From Armatimonadota bacterium (GTDB taxonomy: Bacteria > Armatimonadota > UBA5829 > JAUSEB01), in NCBI GenBank assembly GCA_030649165.1, contig JAUSGG010000259.1, positions 1 to 59,200 on the forward strand: a DNA stretch of 59,200 bases, in the 5' to 3' direction. Below the pieces are notes generated by a model that worked only from the letters and a program-made list of their open reading frames with translations, was not told the DNA's origin and made no database searches. Positions 8,586-54,009 of this stretch are shown piece by piece. Position 1 is the first letter of the stretch, and each line of letters starts with the position of its first letter. The position numbers and the translations under genes were made by a program.

Positions 8586-8674
8586 CCTGCGGACGCTCTG
8601 TAGCGACGCTCCCCGTGGGCGCCTGTGGGCGTTTATATCGAAACCAGTCGAGGAAAGGCAAGGGGGAAGAGAAC

Positions 8675-11600
8675 GTGTTCGTGATTCTGGTGTTTAGCGT
8701 TATCATGTGTGGTTTGTTGGCCGGCGCGGGTCCGGTTGCCGCGAATGACATCAAGCTCATTCCCTATCCCAAGGAGATAACGCGCTCAACCGGCGCCCTT
8801 CGGGTGGGCCCGGCGCGGTACGTCACCCCCGCGCCGTCCAGGACCGTGGAGGTGGCCAAGGCGTCTCTATCGAGCTACCTTCCCAGGTCCGGCAGCCCCA
8901 TCACGGTGCGCCTGGGTTCAGCGGAGGAGGGTTACGACAACAGTTGGCTCACGCCCGACGAAAACAGCTTCCTCAGCAACCCCTCTACCTCGAATGCGGC
9001 GAGCGTTCTGAAGATTGCCTCGGACAGTATCACCGTCGTCGGCAAGGGCAAATGGGGGATGCTCTACGGCGCGCAGACGTTGAACCAACTCATACGCGGA
9101 ACCGACGCAAAACAGGGCATTTGGCGTATGAACGCCAGCCTTCCCTGCCTTACCATCAAGGACTGGCCGGACATGCAGTGGCGCTGCCTTTCGCCCACGA
9201 TGACCTGGTACTCCGGCTACCTCAAGCTCGAAGGCTTCGACCAGTGCAACTGGACCCTGGACGAGTGGAAGTGGCTGGTGGACTGGTCGCTGCTCCACAA
9301 GGTCAATGGTTGGGCTTTGTGTATGTACGGCAATTGGCCTTTTACCCTTCCCGGCTACGAAGAAACGACGCTGGATGTGGACTCGTTCTACTACGATCCC
9401 AAGACCGGCAAGAAGACCCCATGGCGTTTCACCCACAAGAACATCAAGAAAGAGTTCCTGCCGGAGCTTATCCGCTACGCGAACGAGCGCGGGGTGAAGA
9501 TATACGCCTATATCGGCAAGAACACGTTCAACGGCACGTATGGTGTCAAACATCCCGACGCCAATGCGGGCGGCGCCGCCGAGCTGATACCGTTCCACCC
9601 CGGAGTCCACGAATACTGGAACGCGTTTCTCAGGCGCATCATCGAGATCGGGTTTGACGGCTTTGTCTTCGAGGATCCCGAGGCGAACCACGTTCCCAAC
9701 CAGAACGAGATGTGCTACAAGACCTTTTGGGAGCCTTGGGCCGAGAAGTACGGCTTTAAGTCCATCGCTGAAACCAACCAGAGTGACCCGCCGCTCGGCG
9801 TGCAGGTCGAATACTACTCCTGGCTCTTCAAGACGTTCGACGACCTGATTCGGAAGAATGCCGATGAACTGCGGCGTCCTGATCCCGAAATCTACTTGAT
9901 CTCGCACGTCCTGCTGTCGCGAATGGTCGGCGAGAGCAAGACACAGGCTGAACGCGACAAATGGTTCGCGTATATCGACGAGAAGCAAGGTCGCAAGGTA
10001 TCCTTCATCATACTGGAAGCTGACGAATCCAAGTATGTGAGCTTCCTCGGGCGCGACCGCGTCGCCAGCCTCGGAGGGCGGGGCGGATCGTGCACGTGCG
10101 CTATGCGCCGGATCGCCAGCGTAAACAACAATTGGTCCAACGGCCCGTTCGGCGCCGACCTGGCTTACGAGCGCGCCTGCCAGAAACACATCTACGAGGC
10201 GGGCGGCTTCGGCGCAATGGCCTACGTCTTCGAGTGGACCAATACCGAGGTCTTCGGGTACCTGGGCTCGCAGTACCTATGGCATAACGCCGGCGTTCCG
10301 GGCATCGACAACGACAACCAGACAGGCTTCCTCTACTACGCGTACCCGTCCTATTACGGCGACGAGGTGGGCGAGATGGCCGCCCGGATACTGGACGAAG
10401 GGCCGTGCGTCAACGACGCAATGATGCTCGAAGGAGTCTACGGGACCCAGTATCCGTCAACGGGCGCGCCGCTGCATCGTGACTATCAACTCCTGGCGGC
10501 CATAGCCGACAAGTCCGTCAAGATGGCCCGAAAGGCCTATAAGGCTTACACTGGCGAAAATCCGAACCTCTTGAAGCCGGTCTACCGTCAGGAAGACTAT
10601 CGCTGGAACGGCTTCGACCCAATGGCCGACAAGCTCTTCAAGTCCGAGCGGCTGCGGCTCCTTTACGTATCGACCAAGCGATCGCAGGCGATGTGCGAGG
10701 CCGTATTGGCCCACCGCATGGCGCAGCGGCTCATTGCCGAGGGCGCCCCCGCGGGCGAAGTGTTGAAGTACCTCAATAAAGCCCTGGAAGCAGCCAAGGA
10801 GAGCCAGCGCATTTACTGTCTCAACTACGATGACGACTACGACTGGACCGATGGCCTCTGTTCGAGGGTGGTCGATGAGCTGGAACTGATTCGAAATCGC
10901 TTCGCCGCCTCGGTCAGCGGGACCGAGAAGGTCGCCAAATCCTGGACGTTCGACAACCCGGGCGATCCGCGGGGCTGGACGGAATCCCATGACCTGGAAG
11001 CTCCGGTCGTCAAGGACGGGGCGTTCTTCGCGCGGGGGACTGGGGTAAACCCGATTATCGTCCAGACCGAGCCTTTATTGGCTGCCGTAAACGCCCGGTC
11101 CATTGTCGAGATCGACATTTCATCCGACCGCGACGGTCTACTCCGCCTCTTCTGGGCAACCGCGGCCGACATGGAGAAGCAAGCTAAGGGAGCCTATCCG
11201 TACACCGAGGAGCGCGTCCGAAACGCCGAGTTGAAGGGTGGGGGAGAGGCGCGCGTGTACCGGCTTTCTCCCGCCTGGAACGGCGTTCTGGCCAACTTGC
11301 GGTTCGACATACCCAAGGATGCGAGCGTTCGGATCAACTCCATCCGCATAGTCGAGTATCCCGAATCGAGCGCGGCCTCCCCGGACGCCTTGAAGAAACC
11401 TGTCCCCAGTACCGTCCGCCGGAGCGGCGACCGTCCGCTCTTCATACCCTGGGAGAAACTCTCGGATATCGTACCCAAAGCCCAAGCAGCCAAGAAACCG
11501 GGGCTGTATCTGGTTACGGACATCGGCTTCGACCGAAGGCCCGACTTCTTCAGGCTTGGCGTGGTCTTCACCGTCGAGGCTCGGGATGCCGAGGGCAAGT

Positions 11601-12571
11601 GGAAGCCCGTCTTCCGCCGCGGGCTGGAAAGAAGGACAACGGGTTGGGAACACTGGGATATCCCGCTGGATGGCGTTGCCGCCGGATCGGGAAGCCTCAA
11701 GCTGCGATTCACAACAGACTCGTACTCCCGCGCCCAGCGCCGAGGCGCTCCGAGCTGGAAATGGGCGATCTGGGGCCGGCCTCAGTTGGTGGAGGTGACC
11801 GCCGACGGCAGGCGCCGGGTCCGATATGACTTCGTGAAGCAAATCGCCGGCGGCAAGATGCTGGTTCGGCTCGACGAGGACGGTCGGGAGCGCCAATTCG
11901 ACGGCAAGGGCGCTGACTCGACCGGCGCGACATTCGCCTGTATATCACCGGATCCCATCGGGTTGCTCAAGTCCGGCGAAGCAAGGTATTGGCAAATCGT
12001 CGACGGCTTCGCGGAGTGGGCCTCGCCGCCCGATCACAAAGGTCAGTACCGATCCTATCTGGGGTCCGTGGATTCGGGTTGGGTCTACGGCGCGGAGAAC
12101 GGCGAGCTTGCCTGGCGCACTGCTCCCGTCACCGATAAGAAGACGACGGCCGTGGTGTTCGTCGGAGGCACGGGCTACGCCGCCGGGAAGGCCGAGCTTT
12201 GGCTCAACGGTGAGAAGCTGTTGTCGTTCGATATGTCGAAGCCGTCCAATCAGAGATGGGAAGAGAACGGCGTGGAGATGCGCTACATCCACGGCGGCGA
12301 CACCCGCGACAAAACGACGACCTACGGCATCAGCGGCATCTACATCCCCGTGATTCCGGCTTCCAAAGTAACGCCCGGCAGATCACTCGATCTTACAGTC
12401 AAAGTCGTCCCCGGGAGCGACTGGTTTATGGTGCACGAGTATCGGAACATTCGGGAAACCGCCCGGCAGGTGATGTGTCCCCTTCCGGAGGAGCCGGCAA
12501 TAGCCGCCTTCACCCCGCATGTCGATGGCAACTTCGGCGTAACCATTGCGGAGTACGAAGTTGGCCTGTGA
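8675..12571 (+). CDS. large secreted GH20-like (beta-hexosaminidase fold) protein
   Basis: A 1298-residue exported protein. GTG 8675, preceded by AAGGGGGAAGA, gives a clean signal peptide of about 24 residues ending near VAA-ND. Residues 25-150 match the non-catalytic GH20b-type domain (LIPYPKEI, GAQTLNQLI), followed by a barrel with WPDMQWRC, a KVNGWALCMYG strand and GFDGFVFEDPEAN, where the Glu-Asp pair lies at the position expected for catalysis. The canonical GH20 Asp-Glu context is altered, so hexosaminidase activity is not certain. The C-terminal 500 residues look like two or three beta-sandwich (carbohydrate-binding) modules. Probably hydrolyses a glycan outside the cytoplasmic membrane. 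Confidence 0.75.
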   Translation: MFVILVFSVIMCGLLAGAGPVAANDIKLIPYPKEITRSTGALRVGPARYVTPAPSRTVEVAKASLSSYLPRSGSPITVRLGSAEEGYDNSWLTPDENSFLSNPSTSNAASVLKIASDSITVVGKGKWGMLYGAQTLNQLIRGTDAKQGIWRMNASLPCLTIKDWPDMQWRCLSPTMTWYSGYLKLEGFDQCNWTLDEWKWLVDWSLLHKVNGWALCMYGNWPFTLPGYEETTLDVDSFYYDPKTGKKTPWRFTHKNIKKEFLPELIRYANERGVKIYAYIGKNTFNGTYGVKHPDANAGGAAELIPFHPGVHEYWNAFLRRIIEIGFDGFVFEDPEANHVPNQNEMCYKTFWEPWAEKYGFKSIAETNQSDPPLGVQVEYYSWLFKTFDDLIRKNADELRRPDPEIYLISHVLLSRMVGESKTQAERDKWFAYIDEKQGRKVSFIILEADESKYVSFLGRDRVASLGGRGGSCTCAMRRIASVNNNWSNGPFGADLAYERACQKHIYEAGGFGAMAYVFEWTNTEVFGYLGSQYLWHNAGVPGIDNDNQTGFLYYAYPSYYGDEVGEMAARILDEGPCVNDAMMLEGVYGTQYPSTGAPLHRDYQLLAAIADKSVKMARKAYKAYTGENPNLLKPVYRQEDYRWNGFDPMADKLFKSERLRLLYVSTKRSQAMCEAVLAHRMAQRLIAEGAPAGEVLKYLNKALEAAKESQRIYCLNYDDDYDWTDGLCSRVVDELELIRNRFAASVSGTEKVAKSWTFDNPGDPRGWTESHDLEAPVVKDGAFFARGTGVNPIIVQTEPLLAAVNARSIVEIDISSDRDGLLRLFWATAADMEKQAKGAYPYTEERVRNAELKGGGEARVYRLSPAWNGVLANLRFDIPKDASVRINSIRIVEYPESSAASPDALKKPVPSTVRRSGDRPLFIPWEKLSDIVPKAQAAKKPGLYLVTDIGFDRRPDFFRLGVVFTVEARDAEGKWKPVFRRGLERRTTGWEHWDIPLDGVAAGSGSLKLRFTTDSYSRAQRRGAPSWKWAIWGRPQLVEVTADGRRRVRYDFVKQIAGGKMLVRLDEDGRERQFDGKGADSTGATFACISPDPIGLLKSGEARYWQIVDGFAEWASPPDHKGQYRSYLGSVDSGWVYGAENGELAWRTAPVTDKKTTAVVFVGGTGYAAGKAELWLNGEKLLSFDMSKPSNQRWEENGVEMRYIHGGDTRDKTTTYGISGIYIPVIPASKVTPGRSLDLTVKVVPGSDWFMVHEYRNIRETARQVMCPLPEEPAIAAFTPHVDGNFGVTIAEYEVGL

Positions 12572-12693
12572 CATGCCCGGTCGATCTTCGGACAACCCGC
12601 GGTCCACGGAAATGCCGTCTGCGCTCATAATCACCAATCCGCGTTAATCGGCGTTCCTCATTGAATTTTCGCCTCCTGAGAGAATACCGTCTT

Positions 12694-12710
12694 TTGGCAC
12701 GATTCTTGCA
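12694..12710 (+). promoter_or_regulatory. sigma-54 promoter of small RNA 1
   Basis: TTGGCACGATTCTTGCA matches the sigma-54 (RpoN) consensus TGGCAC-N5-TTGCA with GG and GC separated by exactly ten bases. It is perfectly repeated at 12935-12951. About 60 conserved bases upstream could hold an activator site. Confidence 0.85.
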
Positions 12711-12720
12711 CTACCCTACC

Positions 12721-12815
12721 TAGACACAATACTTCTCCTTTTCTTCTTCCGAATGCTTGTAATATGGGGCGAAAGCCCCGCAGGAAGGCCCCGCTGAAGA
12801 GCGGGGTGTTTTTTT
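12721..12815 (+). ncRNA. putative sigma-54-dependent small RNA 1
   Basis: Predicted transcript of about 95 nt, starting about 12 bases after the -12 GC. It has an unpaired pyrimidine-rich 5' part (CTTCTCCTTTTCTTCTTCC, 12732-12750), a GNRA-capped hairpin GGGGC-GAAA-GCCCC (12766-12779), an AGGAAGG linker and a terminator hairpin. There is no ribosome binding site and no plausible reading frame. The CU-rich segment is complementary to Shine-Dalgarno sequences, so base pairing with mRNAs or titration of an RNA-binding protein are both possible. I do not recognise a known RNA family. Confidence 0.75.
12789..12815 (+). terminator. intrinsic terminator of small RNA 1
   Basis: Stem CCCCGCT / AGCGGGG with loop GAAG, followed by TG and seven T residues. 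Confidence 0.92.
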
Positions 12816-12934
12816 GCTCTGATCAGTCCCACCCGTTCGACTCCTCCGACTTTCTCGACACCCGTTCCCAACCCCCAATCCGCGTTAATCGGCGTTCCTC
12901 ATTGAATTTTCGCCTCCTGAGAGAATACCGTCTT

Positions 12935-12951
12935 TTGGCACGATTCTTGCA
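12935..12951 (+). promoter_or_regulatory. sigma-54 promoter of small RNA 2
   Basis: Identical copy of the -24/-12 element: GG at 12937-12938 and GC at 12949-12950 with ten bases between. Confidence 0.85.
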
Positions 12952-12961
12952 CTAACTCTAC

Positions 12962-13058
12962 CTAGACACAATACTTCTCCTTTTCTTCTTCCGAATGCTT
13001 GTAATATGGGGCGAAAGCCCCGCAGGAAGGCCCCGCTGAAAAGCGGGGTGTTTTTTTT
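12962..13058 (+). ncRNA. putative sigma-54-dependent small RNA 2
   Basis: Near-identical to small RNA 1, with the CU-rich 5' segment, the GAAA-capped hairpin at 13008-13021 and the AGGAAGG linker all unchanged. The differences lie outside the paired regions (terminator loop GAAA instead of GAAG), which is what selection on RNA structure would leave. Confidence 0.75.
13031..13058 (+). terminator. intrinsic terminator of small RNA 2
   Basis: Stem CCCCGCT / AGCGGGG, loop GAAA, followed by TG and eight T residues. Confidence 0.92.
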
Positions 13059-13158
13059 GCTCTGATCATTCGCACCCGTCCGAGTCCTCCGCCTCCCTCG
13101 CCTCTCTCGACTCTCTTATGCTACAATCCACTATCACAGCCCCTGCGGAGGCCAAACC

Positions 13159-13893
13159 GTGATCCCACTCAGAGACGAGAATCCGACGAGAACAACGCCC
13201 GTCATTGTGATCGCGCTCATCATTGCAAACGTTCTGATGTTTCTCATCGACCGGCTCGGCGCGCACGGCCCTGTGGGAGCCTTATACGAGTTCCGAATGG
13301 TGCCGCAGAACATAATAAACGAGGTGAGAGGTGTCGGCCCGGTCGCTCCGACGCTTCAACCTGTTTGGCTCACCATATTCACCTCGATGTTCATGCATGC
13401 CAACCTGCTGCACATCGGCGGCAATATGCTGTATTTGTGGATCTTCGGCAACAATATCGAGGACCGGGTGGGCCACGTCAAGTTCGTTCTGTTCTACCTC
13501 GCCGGGGGTTTCGCCGCGGCGGCTGCTCACATATTGAGCACGGCCGGCAATCCCTTCCTGGCCAAACTGCCCACGGTCGGCGCCAGCGGCGCCGTGGCGG
13601 CGGTCCTGGGAGCTTATCTCGTTCTGTTTCCGACCGCCCGTATTATCTGCCTGGTCATTCTCGGGTTTCTGATAACCACGGTCGCCGTGCCGGCCATTGT
13701 AGTGCTGTTGATCTGGATTGCGCTGCAGATCGTGAGTGTGAGCGTCGTCGGCGGACCGGGGGCGATGAGCGGCGGCGTCGCTTACTGGGCGCACATAGGC
13801 GGGTTTTTCGCTGGGGTGATCATGATCTATCTCCTCGGCGGCAAACGGCTGCTGGGCGGCCGCCGCCGCTACACTGGATATCCGGAGTGGTGA
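13159..13893 (+). CDS. rhomboid family intramembrane serine protease
   Basis: A 244-residue polytopic protease that cleaves transmembrane segments inside the bilayer. The catalytic Ser143 sits in GASGAVAAVLGA and the general base His212 in YWAHIGGFFAG; the HIGGNMLYLWIFG strand with the oxyanion-site Asn lies upstream, all as in GlpG-type rhomboids. Six hydrophobic segments are seen. GTG 13159 follows GGAGG at 13147. The gene stands alone, convergent with its right neighbour. Confidence 0.93.
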   Translation: MIPLRDENPTRTTPVIVIALIIANVLMFLIDRLGAHGPVGALYEFRMVPQNIINEVRGVGPVAPTLQPVWLTIFTSMFMHANLLHIGGNMLYLWIFGNNIEDRVGHVKFVLFYLAGGFAAAAAHILSTAGNPFLAKLPTVGASGAVAAVLGAYLVLFPTARIICLVILGFLITTVAVPAIVVLLIWIALQIVSVSVVGGPGAMSGGVAYWAHIGGFFAGVIMIYLLGGKRLLGGRRRYTGYPEW

Positions 13894-50750: not shown

Positions 50751-51605
50751 GTGAAAAAGTTGCTTGCATATTCCTGTTTGGCCTTTGTTATAGCGCAGTC
50801 AGGCGCGTACGCCGCCAACGGCAAGAAGCCGGTTATAACCATCTCGGCCACGGCGACCACAGCCACAGGGGCGGTTCGAGAGTTCTCGACTCCCGCAGGC
50901 CGCGTGGCCTGGTCACCGTCGCTGCCCCTGTACCGCGGCGATCTATTGAGATTGACTTTCAACATATCCAGGGTGGAGCCTTCGCGAGTCTCGGTCAAGC
51001 TGGACGGTCGCCCTATCGCGGACCTAAAGAGGCGTCCGTGGTCGGTCTTGATCAACACCTCGAACCTTGCGCCGGGCAAACACGTTGCCAAGGGTGACAT
51101 AAGATTTCCGGGAACGCCTCGAATGTACTCCATCGCGGAATTCCCGTTCCACGTCCACCCTCCGGCCTCGATGGTCAAGGGAATAGTCGAATCGATCGGG
51201 CCTGAGCAGGGAAAACCGCCGGTTCCGATGGTGGAGATAAGCCCGCCCAAGCTCGTAGTTCCTCCCGAGTCTCGTGTAGACGAGACTTTTCAGGTTACAT
51301 TGTGCTCATTGGACCTTGCTGCCGGCGGCGCGCTGCGGCGCGGAGAGCCGGTAGAGGTGAAGGGGCCTGTGGCTTTCTATCTTTCGGGCCCATCGAAGCT
51401 CGACCGTTGGGCCTACGTTATTACGAGGGATGGCAGGCAGATTGCGGGGGCCGGGCCGATGCGCCCGACAGTCTACCTGCAGGTAGCGCCTAAGTCCGGG
51501 AGCGAACCGGGGCTGCTTCCGGGCAAACTGCTGCTTCGGGCCTGGGGGGTTACAGGCAGCGGGACGTACAGCCGGCCAGTAGAGGCCGAGCTGGTGGTTG
51601 AATAA
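50751..51605 (+). CDS. secreted protein of the exosortase locus
   Basis: A 284-residue exported protein (signal peptide of about 22 residues, SGAYA-AN) made of beta-rich Ig-like domains: VITISATATT, LLRLTFNISRVEPSRVSVKLDG, then a second part with VEISPPKLVVPPESR and YLQVAPKSG. GTG start with GGAGG nearby. It stops 17 bases before the PEP-CTERM gene and so is the first gene of the exosortase operon. Not recognised as a known family; probably an envelope or extracellular partner of the surface protein. Confidence 0.65.
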   Translation: MKKLLAYSCLAFVIAQSGAYAANGKKPVITISATATTATGAVREFSTPAGRVAWSPSLPLYRGDLLRLTFNISRVEPSRVSVKLDGRPIADLKRRPWSVLINTSNLAPGKHVAKGDIRFPGTPRMYSIAEFPFHVHPPASMVKGIVESIGPEQGKPPVPMVEISPPKLVVPPESRVDETFQVTLCSLDLAAGGALRRGEPVEVKGPVAFYLSGPSKLDRWAYVITRDGRQIAGAGPMRPTVYLQVAPKSGSEPGLLPGKLLLRAWGVTGSGTYSRPVEAELVVE

Positions 51606-51622
51606 GATTTCCGGAGATAGCG

Positions 51623-52399
51623 ATGAAGAAACTGTGGATTCTCGCAGGTGTCTGCATATTGGCCGCGCCGGCTTACGGCGCGCGGCGCGGCGTGCCGCCC
51701 GGGTCGTATCTGAGAAAGCCCGTATCGTCCGTTGAGGAACTCGCGGCCGTAATCAGCAAAGACCGCGTTGTTCAAAGGCAGTTCGCTACGCACTTCGGCG
51801 TTCCCTCTGGCCAACTGGCGACCTACATCCGGGACAACGTAGTCATCACGAGGGTCAGCGCCAACACGCCGAAGTCCGTTTACATCATAAGACGTAACGG
51901 ACAAATGGTGGCGCAGCGGACGACCCTTCGCAAGGGCACGCCCATATTCGCGCTGAAAGACACGGGCGAACCGCTCCTGGTGTTGAAATGCGGCAACCCG
52001 GCGCTGAAAAAGCTGCCGCCAAGGGAGAAGGTAAGGGCGGGTCCGCCGCAAGTCTACCAACTTGTCCGTCCGAACGAAGCTCCTCTGCCTCCTCCGGTAG
52101 CTATGGCGCCTCCGAGCGAGGTTCCGCCATTACCGCCGCCGACTCTGGTGGCTGCCTCTCCGGCGCCCGCGCCGGTAGCGGCCGCGCCGCCGACTGTTGT
52201 GGCCAAAAAGCGCGTCCTGCTGCCGCTGCTTGGTGGATTGTTCGCGTTTCATCGCGGCGAAAAGCCGCCGCCGCCGATACCGGAGCCGGGCGGCGCTGCC
52301 GCGGTCACCGCGACAGCTCTTCTGCCGGCCGCCGGCTGGGCCATTAGACGAATTCGCTGCAGGGGCAGGACAAACGAAAGCGCAAACGAAAGCGCGTGA
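51623..52399 (+). CDS. PEP-CTERM surface protein, presumed exosortase substrate
   Basis: A 258-residue secreted protein with signal peptide (about 19 residues, APAYG-A). A folded domain (residues 28-140) is followed by a Pro-rich stretch (about 147-190). Near the C-terminus, Pro220-Glu221-Pro222 is followed by a hydrophobic segment (GGAAAVTATALLPAAGWA) and an Arg cluster (IRRIRCRGR), the layout of a PEP-CTERM sorting signal. The tail after the Arg cluster is about ten residues longer than normal. The exosortase gene begins 52 bases downstream, which makes this the likely dedicated substrate. The N-terminal domain resembles no family I know. Confidence 0.72.
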   Translation: MKKLWILAGVCILAAPAYGARRGVPPGSYLRKPVSSVEELAAVISKDRVVQRQFATHFGVPSGQLATYIRDNVVITRVSANTPKSVYIIRRNGQMVAQRTTLRKGTPIFALKDTGEPLLVLKCGNPALKKLPPREKVRAGPPQVYQLVRPNEAPLPPPVAMAPPSEVPPLPPPTLVAASPAPAPVAAAPPTVVAKKRVLLPLLGGLFAFHRGEKPPPPIPEPGGAAAVTATALLPAAGWAIRRIRCRGRTNESANESA

Positions 52400-52450
52400 C
52401 GGCGCCGCCGGGGCAGGGTCCCCTGTCCCGGCTATTTTTGCGGTACGCTT

Positions 52451-53368
52451 ATGGCAGAGATTGCTGCAAGGTCCAAACAAACCCGCGGAAAGACGGTAAG
52501 CAAGCCGGTTCGTTTTGCCGCGCCGAGGGGATCATGGCCCACGGTTGTCGCGTGCGGAGTGGCCGCGGCGGCGCTCGTCGCCGCATACTGGCCCGCCCTG
52601 TCCTTCTGGTGGACCACGTGGTTTGAGAAGGACAGCTTCTATTCCCACGGGCCGTTCGTGCCCGTAGCGTCCGCGTTTATCATCTGGGCAAATCACAAGA
52701 GGCTGCGCGGACTGACACCAAGTCCGTCAAAATGGGGCTATGCGCTGATGGTTGCCGCCATGTTCTGCGGATGGCTGGCCTGGATGGGGGCGAGCGCGAG
52801 CGTGATGGGCTTCACACTGCCCGTTTTCCTGTTCGGATGTGTTGTGGCGACGCTTGGGTTTCCGGCCGCGCGCTTGATGGCTTTTCCGCTGTTCCTCCTG
52901 TGGTTTGCCGCGCCGCCGCCTGAGTCGTTGCTGACCGGATTGAGTCTGAGAGTCCAGCTATTGTCGATCCGTGCCGCAGCGGCGGGTCTCGACTTCTTGG
53001 GGATAGGCGCGGCGAGCAGAGGAACGTTCATTGACACTCCGGCGTTGACTCTCGAAGTCGGCAGCGCGTGCAGCGGCTACAGGTTAGTCGTGTCGATGCT
53101 GGCCATAGCCGCGTTCTTCGCATACGTCCGACGCGGACCCGGATGGAGCAAACCCTCTCTCGTGGCCTTCGCTCTGCCTCTGAGTCTGGCGGCGAATTCA
53201 GTCCGAATAGTCACTATTGCGATCGTGGGGCAGTTCTGGGGCGCGCCGGGTGTTACCGCCGCGCATAATCTGACCGGTTATATGATGCTGGTGACGACCG
53301 CGGGGCTGCTGCTCCTGTTTGCGAGGATGGTGGGATGCGCTCGTTACAAAGAAATACCTTTGGCGTAG
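52451..53368 (+). CDS. exosortase (EpsH-like transpeptidase)
   Basis: A 305-residue polytopic membrane enzyme that cleaves PEP-CTERM signals. The three catalytic positions are present: Cys207 in GSACSGYR, Arg252 in NSVRI and His272 in AHNLTGY, together with WPALSFWW, FYSHGPFVP and LSLRVQL. Eight or so hydrophobic segments are seen. It is the Gram-negative functional analogue of sortase and often works with polysaccharide export. The gene overlaps epsI-like by 34 bases. Confidence 0.93.
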   Translation: MAEIAARSKQTRGKTVSKPVRFAAPRGSWPTVVACGVAAAALVAAYWPALSFWWTTWFEKDSFYSHGPFVPVASAFIIWANHKRLRGLTPSPSKWGYALMVAAMFCGWLAWMGASASVMGFTLPVFLFGCVVATLGFPAARLMAFPLFLLWFAAPPPESLLTGLSLRVQLLSIRAAAAGLDFLGIGAASRGTFIDTPALTLEVGSACSGYRLVVSMLAIAAFFAYVRRGPGWSKPSLVAFALPLSLAANSVRIVTIAIVGQFWGAPGVTAAHNLTGYMMLVTTAGLLLLFARMVGCARYKEIPLA

Positions 53369-54009
53369 CGGCGGTTTCGGTCGTATTCGCGGTTCTTACG
53401 TTCTTCGTGAGGCCGGCGATGATATTCGGCCGCGTAGTCGAGAAGTTCGATGACGTGCCCCGCGCAATAGGGGAGTGGATCGGCCGGGACGCCGACAGTC
53501 GTCAATCCGCCCGCCTTTTGCCCAACTCCGCCGTCTTAGTCCGCGACTACTACAACGGCAGCGGCAGGCAGGCGAACCTGCTGATAGTATACGGTCTCGA
53601 CATCGCGGACATCCACGATCCTCAGTACTGTTTCGAGGGAGAAGGCTGGAAGGTCATTGCCGGCCAAACAGTAAAGCTGCAGCCGGCCTCCGGCCCCGCC
53701 CATCCCGCCAGGATGACCCTGCTCCAACGATCTGGAGGCGGCTACACAGTCGGCATACATTGGTACGCGAGTCCTAATGGGTCCAAAGACACTTTGGCGG
53801 CACAAAGACTCGACATCTGGAAAAACGCGCTGCTGTCGCGGAGAGTCCATCCCTCGGCTCTAGTCAGGATATTGGTCCCCGTGACAGAAGGCCAGAACAC
53901 GGCGGAGTTGGACGCGCTGTCGCTCGCGTTCTATCTCGACGAGCCGGTAGTGCGAATGGTCTCGCGGTCGGCGAACGCGGCCCCGGCTGATATGGCCGAC
54001 GGACGTTAG
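53335..54009 (+). CDS. EpsI family exosortase-associated protein
   Basis: A 224-residue protein with a single N-terminal membrane segment and the EpsI (DUF3485) domain; IGEWIGRDADS, IHDPQYCFEGEGWKV and HWYASPNGSKD are typical. EpsI-like proteins accompany exosortases, sometimes fused to them, and their exact role is unknown. The ATG at 53335 overlaps the exosortase end. The gene ends six bases before the convergent PIG-L stop. Confidence 0.9.
   Translation: MRSLQRNTFGVAAVSVVFAVLTFFVRPAMIFGRVVEKFDDVPRAIGEWIGRDADSRQSARLLPNSAVLVRDYYNGSGRQANLLIVYGLDIADIHDPQYCFEGEGWKVIAGQTVKLQPASGPAHPARMTLLQRSGGGYTVGIHWYASPNGSKDTLAAQRLDIWKNALLSRRVHPSALVRILVPVTEGQNTAELDALSLAFYLDEPVVRMVSRSANAAPADMADGR

Follow-up and report, generated by a model that had tools for sequence, protein, structure and literature searches.

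What are the two nearly identical, closely spaced repeats that lie between a GH20-type gene and a rhomboid-family protease gene in an Armatimonadota genome, and which genes might they control? The window, the whole stretch of DNA analyzed here, is 59,200 nucleotides long. An earlier note on the same DNA had described the repeats as a tandem pair of sigma-54-dependent small RNA (sRNA) genes, each with a pyrimidine run able to pair with Shine-Dalgarno (SD) sequences. Here we compare the repeats with their relatives and with the gene starts that they could pair with.

Results

Structure of the repeat pair

The repeat comparison confirmed the tandem arrangement: two direct repeats, each made of a perfect -24/-12 promoter, a body of ~95 nt, and an intrinsic terminator (Table 1). 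The 103-nt blocks at 12713-12815 and 12955-13057 are 98% identical, and the 92-nt blocks at 12622-12713 and 12863-12954 are 95% identical. The unit of ~192 bp given in the earlier note holds as the conserved length but not as the repeat period, which is ~242 bp (241-243 bp from start to start). Allowing three mismatches, these two sites were the only matches to the promoter element in the window, compared with 0.14 expected from shuffled sequences. The terminator loop is GAAG in copy 1 and GAAA in copy 2, and the T-run of copy 2 has one extra T, as had been reported; the copies also differ between promoter and core (CCCTACC/ACTCTACC).

Folding of the copies gave the GGGGC-GAAA-GCCCC hairpin and an 8-bp terminator (MFE, -33.7; z, -2.4 and -2.2). 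The unit directly downstream of the -24/-12 promoter has the size of an sRNA and ends in an intrinsic terminator without a reading frame; the window copies do contain a 14-codon ATG frame, but it is not kept in genome G001, where the rhomboid protease gene also adjoins the sRNA copy.

The window genome (G000; 5.48 Mb, 266 contigs, 99% complete) carries a third copy on contig C201, which scored 83.5 bits with the covariance model described below and is nearer the family consensus; the window copies scored 78 and 73 bits. On sequence grounds, the window copies are a recent tandem duplication of one sRNA gene.

Table 1. Coordinates of the features in the window
Feature	Position	Strand	Details
GH20-type gene, other flank of the repeats	8615-12571		
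Upstream region duplicated with copy 1	12640-12693	+	Expected location of activator site; TACCG half-site at 12684-12688
-24/-12 (sigma-54) promoter, copy 1	12694-12710	+	TTGGCACGATTCTTGCA; expected +1 near 12721; same element before nearly all relatives
5' antisense arm, copy 1 (predicted)	12721-12762	+	Pyrimidine core CTTCTCCTTTTCTTCTTCC at 12732-12750, then family-f1 tail GAATGCTTGTAA
GNRA-capped hairpin, copy 1	12766-12779	+	GGGGC-GAAA-GCCCC; particular to window lineage, absent or different in other families
Intrinsic terminator, copy 1	12788-12815	+	GCCCCGCT-GAAG-AGCGGGGT and T7
-24/-12 (sigma-54) promoter, copy 2	12935-12951	+	Same sequence as copy 1
5' antisense arm, copy 2 (predicted)	12963-13004	+	Pyrimidine core at 12974-12992
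GNRA-capped hairpin, copy 2	13008-13021	+	By folding
Intrinsic terminator, copy 2	13030-13058	+	Loop GAAA, T8
Rhomboid-family protease gene, downstream	13159-13893	+	PF01694, 115 bits; context only
Exosortase gene (PEP-CTERM sorting enzyme)	52451-53368	+	TIGR02602, 147 bits (cut-off 105.6); PF09721, 175 bits
EpsI-type exosortase-associated protein	53335-54009	+	TIGR02914, 53 bits (cut-off 42.8)

Relatives of the repeats within one class

Within the class, a covariance model built from 33 members found relatives in 21 of 28 genomes; across the rest of the phylum Armatimonadota (263 genomes), it found none. Among the 58 aligned matches, ~51 from ~20 genomes were convincing in having promoter, core, and terminator together. 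A pattern of promoter plus pyrimidine stretch found members in 18 of the 28 class genomes, and the reversed control pattern gave 0 matches. Tandem sets of two or three were common (G014, G020, G026, and G022), the members in G022 being divergent. Two simpler queries were set aside: the 19-nt pyrimidine run alone gave 46 matches in named genomes, at the level of chance, and single -24/-12 matches from a DNA search of 100 relatives were mostly promoters of other genes, with few true relatives among them.

The promoter, the pyrimidine core, and the terminator were kept across the family, with compensatory changes in the terminator stem, while the middle of the body varied between families. The GNRA hairpin and AGGAAGG linker pointed out in the earlier note are real in the window copies but not general features. 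In single-sequence folds of families f2 and f3, the core forms half of a 5' hairpin (GAGAAAA-loop-UUUUCUC), and in the f5 copy G020d it lies in a loop closed by UGGUAAG/CUUACCA. RNAalifold on the f2 and f3 members recovered the terminator alone, since the variable loop of the 5' hairpin shifts its alignment.

Neither the window nor any of 20 related loci matched a covariance model of Rfam 15, in line with the earlier statement that no RNA family was recognizable, and the phage records searched gave no match either. By these comparisons, the repeats belong to a previously undescribed family of Armatimonadota sRNA genes. The earlier note had held that a genome without rpoN, or relatives that lose the stems or the -24/-12 element, would speak against sigma-54-dependent sRNA genes. 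The window genome has two sigma-54 (rpoN) genes, and the relatives keep both element and terminator, so neither objection holds.

Complementarity of the core to PEP-CTERM gene starts

Read as its reverse complement, the consensus core CAUCUUUUUCUCCUUCC gives a full ribosome-binding site, GGAAGGAG-AAAAAG-AUG, comprising the SD, the spacer, and the start codon. The proposed pairing with SD sequences was thus supported in a more specific form, in which the predicted pairing spans all three elements and favors genes of PEP-CTERM proteins (signal peptide plus C-terminal PEP-CTERM motif). When the 28 genomes were scanned for AAGGAGAAAARGATG with at most one mismatch and the ORFs of at least 100 aa behind the matches were examined, 20 of 38 ORFs in rpoN-bearing genomes were PEP-CTERM genes, compared with 0 of 5 in the rpoN-less genomes (G013, G008, G006, G016, and G024). 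PEP-CTERM genes number ~9-46 per genome where present, ~1% of genes. The remaining 18 of the 38 starts belonged to other genes, and an exclusive link between the consensus site and PEP-CTERM genes in sRNA-bearing genomes, considered at first, was dropped as too strong for this wider sample.

Duplex energies were calculated for ORFs called in the surroundings of PEP-CTERM genes (80 regions) and of sRNAs (20 regions), with a single simple start rule for all. The median energy with the consensus core was -16.0 kcal/mol for PEP-CTERM starts (n = 89), -10.6 for other secreted proteins (n = 185), and -8.5 for all others (n = 1,024); energies of -15 kcal/mol or better were reached by 61%, 15%, and 7% of the starts, respectively. 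None of 100 shuffled cores equaled the PEP-CTERM difference. Part of the pairing signal arises because PEP-CTERM genes also carry strong SDs (median strength, -12.3 versus -7.9 for ordinary genes). Among strong-SD starts only, however, the medians were still -16.05 for PEP-CTERM genes and -11.5 for others (P = 5e-24, a value that is too small, as are the other P values here, because members and targets are phylogenetically related). The excess lay partly in the spacer, which was all purine in 19 of 78 PEP-CTERM starts and 11 of 439 others. A second pairing site, between ACAACAC in the leader and GUGUUGUGG in the tail, was weakly enriched (3/38 versus 2/481).

Genome G013, which has an exosortase and PEP-CTERM genes without rpoN or the sRNA, served as a control; its PEP-CTERM starts reached -12.35 (P = 9e-5) at similar SD strength. 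In G012, the PEP-CTERM starts were strongly complementary to the core although no sRNA was found there. Statistically, the family appears to combine a conserved pairing region with a coherent set of predicted targets.

Covariation between sRNAs and gene starts

With the mean of each sRNA and each target removed, sRNAs had a 0.71 kcal/mol better fit to PEP-CTERM starts from their own family than to those from other families, a difference equaled in 5 of 5,000 label permutations. Families f1, f2, and f4 showed the own-family preference clearly and f3 weakly; f5 did not show it, own starts there being no better than foreign ones. The f4 cores have CUCCUUCUGUCA, and f4 leaders contain CAGAAGGA in 5 of 41 PEP-CTERM genes and 0 of 438 others. 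The f1 leaders favor GGAGGAGA (3/6 versus 2/153), which matches CUCCUCC in the core of the C201 copy.

The arm of the window copies has diverged from the consensus core. Its best partner was the PEP-CTERM gene G000:C9:4601, at -37.8 kcal/mol (rank 1 among 142 same-genome starts), with a near-antisense match over ~40 nt that extends from AGACAC, paired with GUGUCU at the start codon, to CUUGU in the tail. Shuffles of this purine-rich leader gave a mean of -19.2 and a best value of -36.5 in 2,000, so that composition aids the pairing but does not explain it. The seven PEP-CTERM starts ranged from -19 to -38 with the window arm, compared with a median of -15.9 (P = 2e-4).

The second-best partner of the window sRNA was a gene on contig C261 (L253; minus strand, start near plus-strand position 2255), which encodes a secreted protein with an early-ending frame. 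Since a PEP-CTERM motif follows downstream in another frame (C261:870-938), either the assembly or the gene itself probably contains a frameshift.

Distribution of exosortase, sigma-54, activators, and Hfq

The exosortase was found in 24 of the 28 class genomes and was absent from G006, G008, G016, and G024, which have no PEP-CTERM genes or one weak match. The sRNA was present in 21 of the 24 genomes with an exosortase and in 0 of the 4 without. Sigma-54 was absent from G013, G006, G016, and G024, was barely matched in G008, and was not found in G025, which is 69% complete. These rpoN-less genomes lack the sRNA, G025 being the exception; the full list of genomes without it is G013, G008, G006, G016, and G024, plus G012 and G007. 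NtrC-type activators resembling PrsR were absent from the same first five. The best matches to PrsR proper scored ~386-434 bits, all under the cut-off of 502.6, and do not place the activators in the PrsR regulon. Hfq was found in 24 of the 28 class genomes, including the window genome.

In the window itself, the region with the exosortase and EpsI genes (50751-54009) also encodes a secreted protein (51623-52399) that ends in IPEPGG...AIRRIRCR; it is PEP-CTERM-like without a family match.

The earlier note had expected an enhancer site upstream of the promoters. A palindrome different from the PrsR binding site, CYGGTA-N4-TACCRG, occurred there with at most two mismatches in 10 of 51 members (e.g., L320 and L139), compared with 0.2 in shuffles, and is a candidate activator site; the window copies match it poorly, with four mismatches, and the motif is not convincing there. 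A -24/-12 element of their own was found within 300 nt of 12 of 96 PEP-CTERM genes. In G022 (L275-L278), three of four PEP-CTERM genes combine a perfect -24/-12 promoter of their own with rather poor SDs, and control of the PEP-CTERM genes may have shifted to transcription in this genome.

Other RNAs and leader elements

A second RNA type, GGCACAAACAACCAUCUUUUCCUCCUUCC..., carries a TATAAT-like element in place of the -24/-12 promoter, together with a short terminator, and is also antisense to ribosome-binding sites. It was seen in seven f2 genomes (L123:1489 and L151:282, both on the plus strand, and L153, L155, L156, L157, L117, and L114). G007, which lacks the family sRNA, has a different RNA with the core CCAUCUUUUCCUCCUUCC and a TATAAT-like element, also present in G002, G004, G011, G014, G015, and G018. 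Neither the family sRNA nor a TATAAT-type RNA was found in G012. RNAs with two consecutive anti-SD stretches ahead of a terminator (CAUCUUYUUCUCCUUUCACCUCCU...) were observed at L109, L112, and L115 (G003:C35, G018:C61, and G009:C25), mostly without a clear sigma-54 promoter.

In several PEP-CTERM leaders (L250, L251, L255, L256, L113, and L126), the SD is closely preceded by a hairpin, GGCUCCGAAGAGAGCC. As a pattern with at most two mismatches, it was found in 4 of 96 PEP-CTERM genes and 0 of 1,263 others.

Discussion

The results make it likely that sibling sRNAs under sigma-54 control block the translation of PEP-CTERM mRNAs, and that Hfq probably takes part. Once an NtrC-type activator is switched on, sigma-54 RNA polymerase would make an RNA of ~95 nt. 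Its 5' arm, with Hfq likely assisting, would pair with PEP-CTERM mRNAs across the SD, the spacer, and the start codon, and translation of these surface proteins would be blocked. The several sibling copies of a genome would share a common target set with partial specialization, the window copies fitting one PEP-CTERM gene best. Since the RNA is complementary to PEP-CTERM translation starts, it probably turns the surface proteins off as a group; because some PEP-CTERM genes, a minority, carry a -24/-12 element themselves, one might speculate that a single signal turns some surface proteins on and others off.

The core could instead mimic the 16S rRNA tail and dampen any mRNA with a strong SD, PEP-CTERM genes being prominent through their strong SDs alone. 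The CUCCUU within the core, the strength of the PEP-CTERM SDs, and the finding that roughly one consensus-site gene in two lies outside the PEP-CTERM group all fit such a general anti-SD RNA. However, the PEP-CTERM excess persists once SD strength is matched, reaches into the spacer, and is missing in the sRNA-less G013 despite similar SD strength; the family-specific flanks, moreover, covary with those of the leaders. We consider a general anti-SD RNA unlikely. More improbable still is that the sRNAs pair with PEP-CTERM mRNAs with another outcome, in which the mRNAs act as sponges for the sRNAs or are stabilized. The sign of the effect does not follow from complementarity by itself, and in f2 and f3 the core sits in a 5' hairpin whose GAGAAAA arm mimics the target, so that activity itself could be regulated. 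Pairing across the SD and the start codon normally represses, however, and a sponge needs no set of many dispersed targets matched at their start codons.

The AGGAAGG linker of the window copies contains a GGA motif, and the RNA might titrate a CsrA-type protein through it or serve as a CrcZ-like Hfq/Crc sponge. This idea was dropped because the linker, unlike the antisense core, is not conserved across the family; the many repeated GGA or A-rich protein-binding motifs of a CrcZ/CsrB-type sponge were not found, the motifs seen not being family-wide, and we regard titration as very improbable. Equally hard to credit is that the repeats are unexpressed, decayed repeat or promoter fragments. Promoter, core, and terminator are kept jointly in the convincing members while the rest diverges, and the terminator stem shows compensatory changes.

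Translational repression by sibling sRNAs remains our preferred reading. Beyond it we lean, with less assurance, toward an RNA layer dedicated to the exosortase system, in which one sigma-54-dependent family, with a core antisense to the whole ribosome-binding site and coevolving with its targets, would control the PEP-CTERM surface proteome across the class; in genus g7, its place may have been taken by an RNA with a similar core under a different promoter. If true, this would be the first sRNA linked to the PEP-CTERM/exosortase system, as far as the searched literature shows, and a convenient case in which to test how bacteria switch an extensive surface-protein family at once. The same literature contained no described sRNA family from the phylum Armatimonadota. 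Where a pairing core mirrors a complete start site, the target set may be readable from the RNA alone.

Comparison with known systems

The earlier note had named CrcZ and PrrF1/PrrF2 of Pseudomonas as parallels. CrcZ is an RpoN-dependent sRNA that acts as a sponge through repeated A-rich motifs; the family described here shares the RpoN-type promoter, but its conserved part is the antisense core and it has no such motifs. PrrF1 and PrrF2 form a tandem sRNA pair, like the window copies, but are regulated by Fur, whereas the window copies have a -24/-12 promoter and no Rfam match. Neither is the closest in logic; Qrr1-5 of the Vibrionaceae, with several sibling copies and trans-acting pairing near the ribosome-binding site, are closer. 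In V. fischeri, Qrr1 needs sigma-54 together with LuxO or SypG, and BinK, a suppressor of aggregation, keeps it down (PMC10162802). The likeness lies in sigma-54 dependence (predicted here from the promoter), sibling copies, and putative trans-acting pairing at ribosome-binding sites. Unlike Qrr, the present family belongs to another phylum and has no match in Rfam, the Qrr family included; its predicted targets are PEP-CTERM genes rather than quorum regulators; and its arm is complementary to the SD, spacer, and AUG together.

In Proteobacteria, a regulon of the PEP-CTERM/exosortase system that involves PrsK/PrsR and -24/-12 promoters ties sigma-54 to PEP-CTERM genes at the DNA level (Haft et al. 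2006, PMC1569441). The minority of PEP-CTERM genes with a -24/-12 element and the PrsR-like NtrC-type activators in the class resemble that regulon, which differs in having been described as transcriptional activation, in Proteobacteria only, and with no RNA component. Haft et al. expected additional PEP-CTERM regulators elsewhere (PMC1569441), and the sRNA family, if our reading is true, would be an RNA-level member of these. Sibling sigma-54-dependent sRNAs that act at ribosome-binding sites are already known from Qrr; judged by Rfam and the literature searched, the family, the phylum, and the target system are new.
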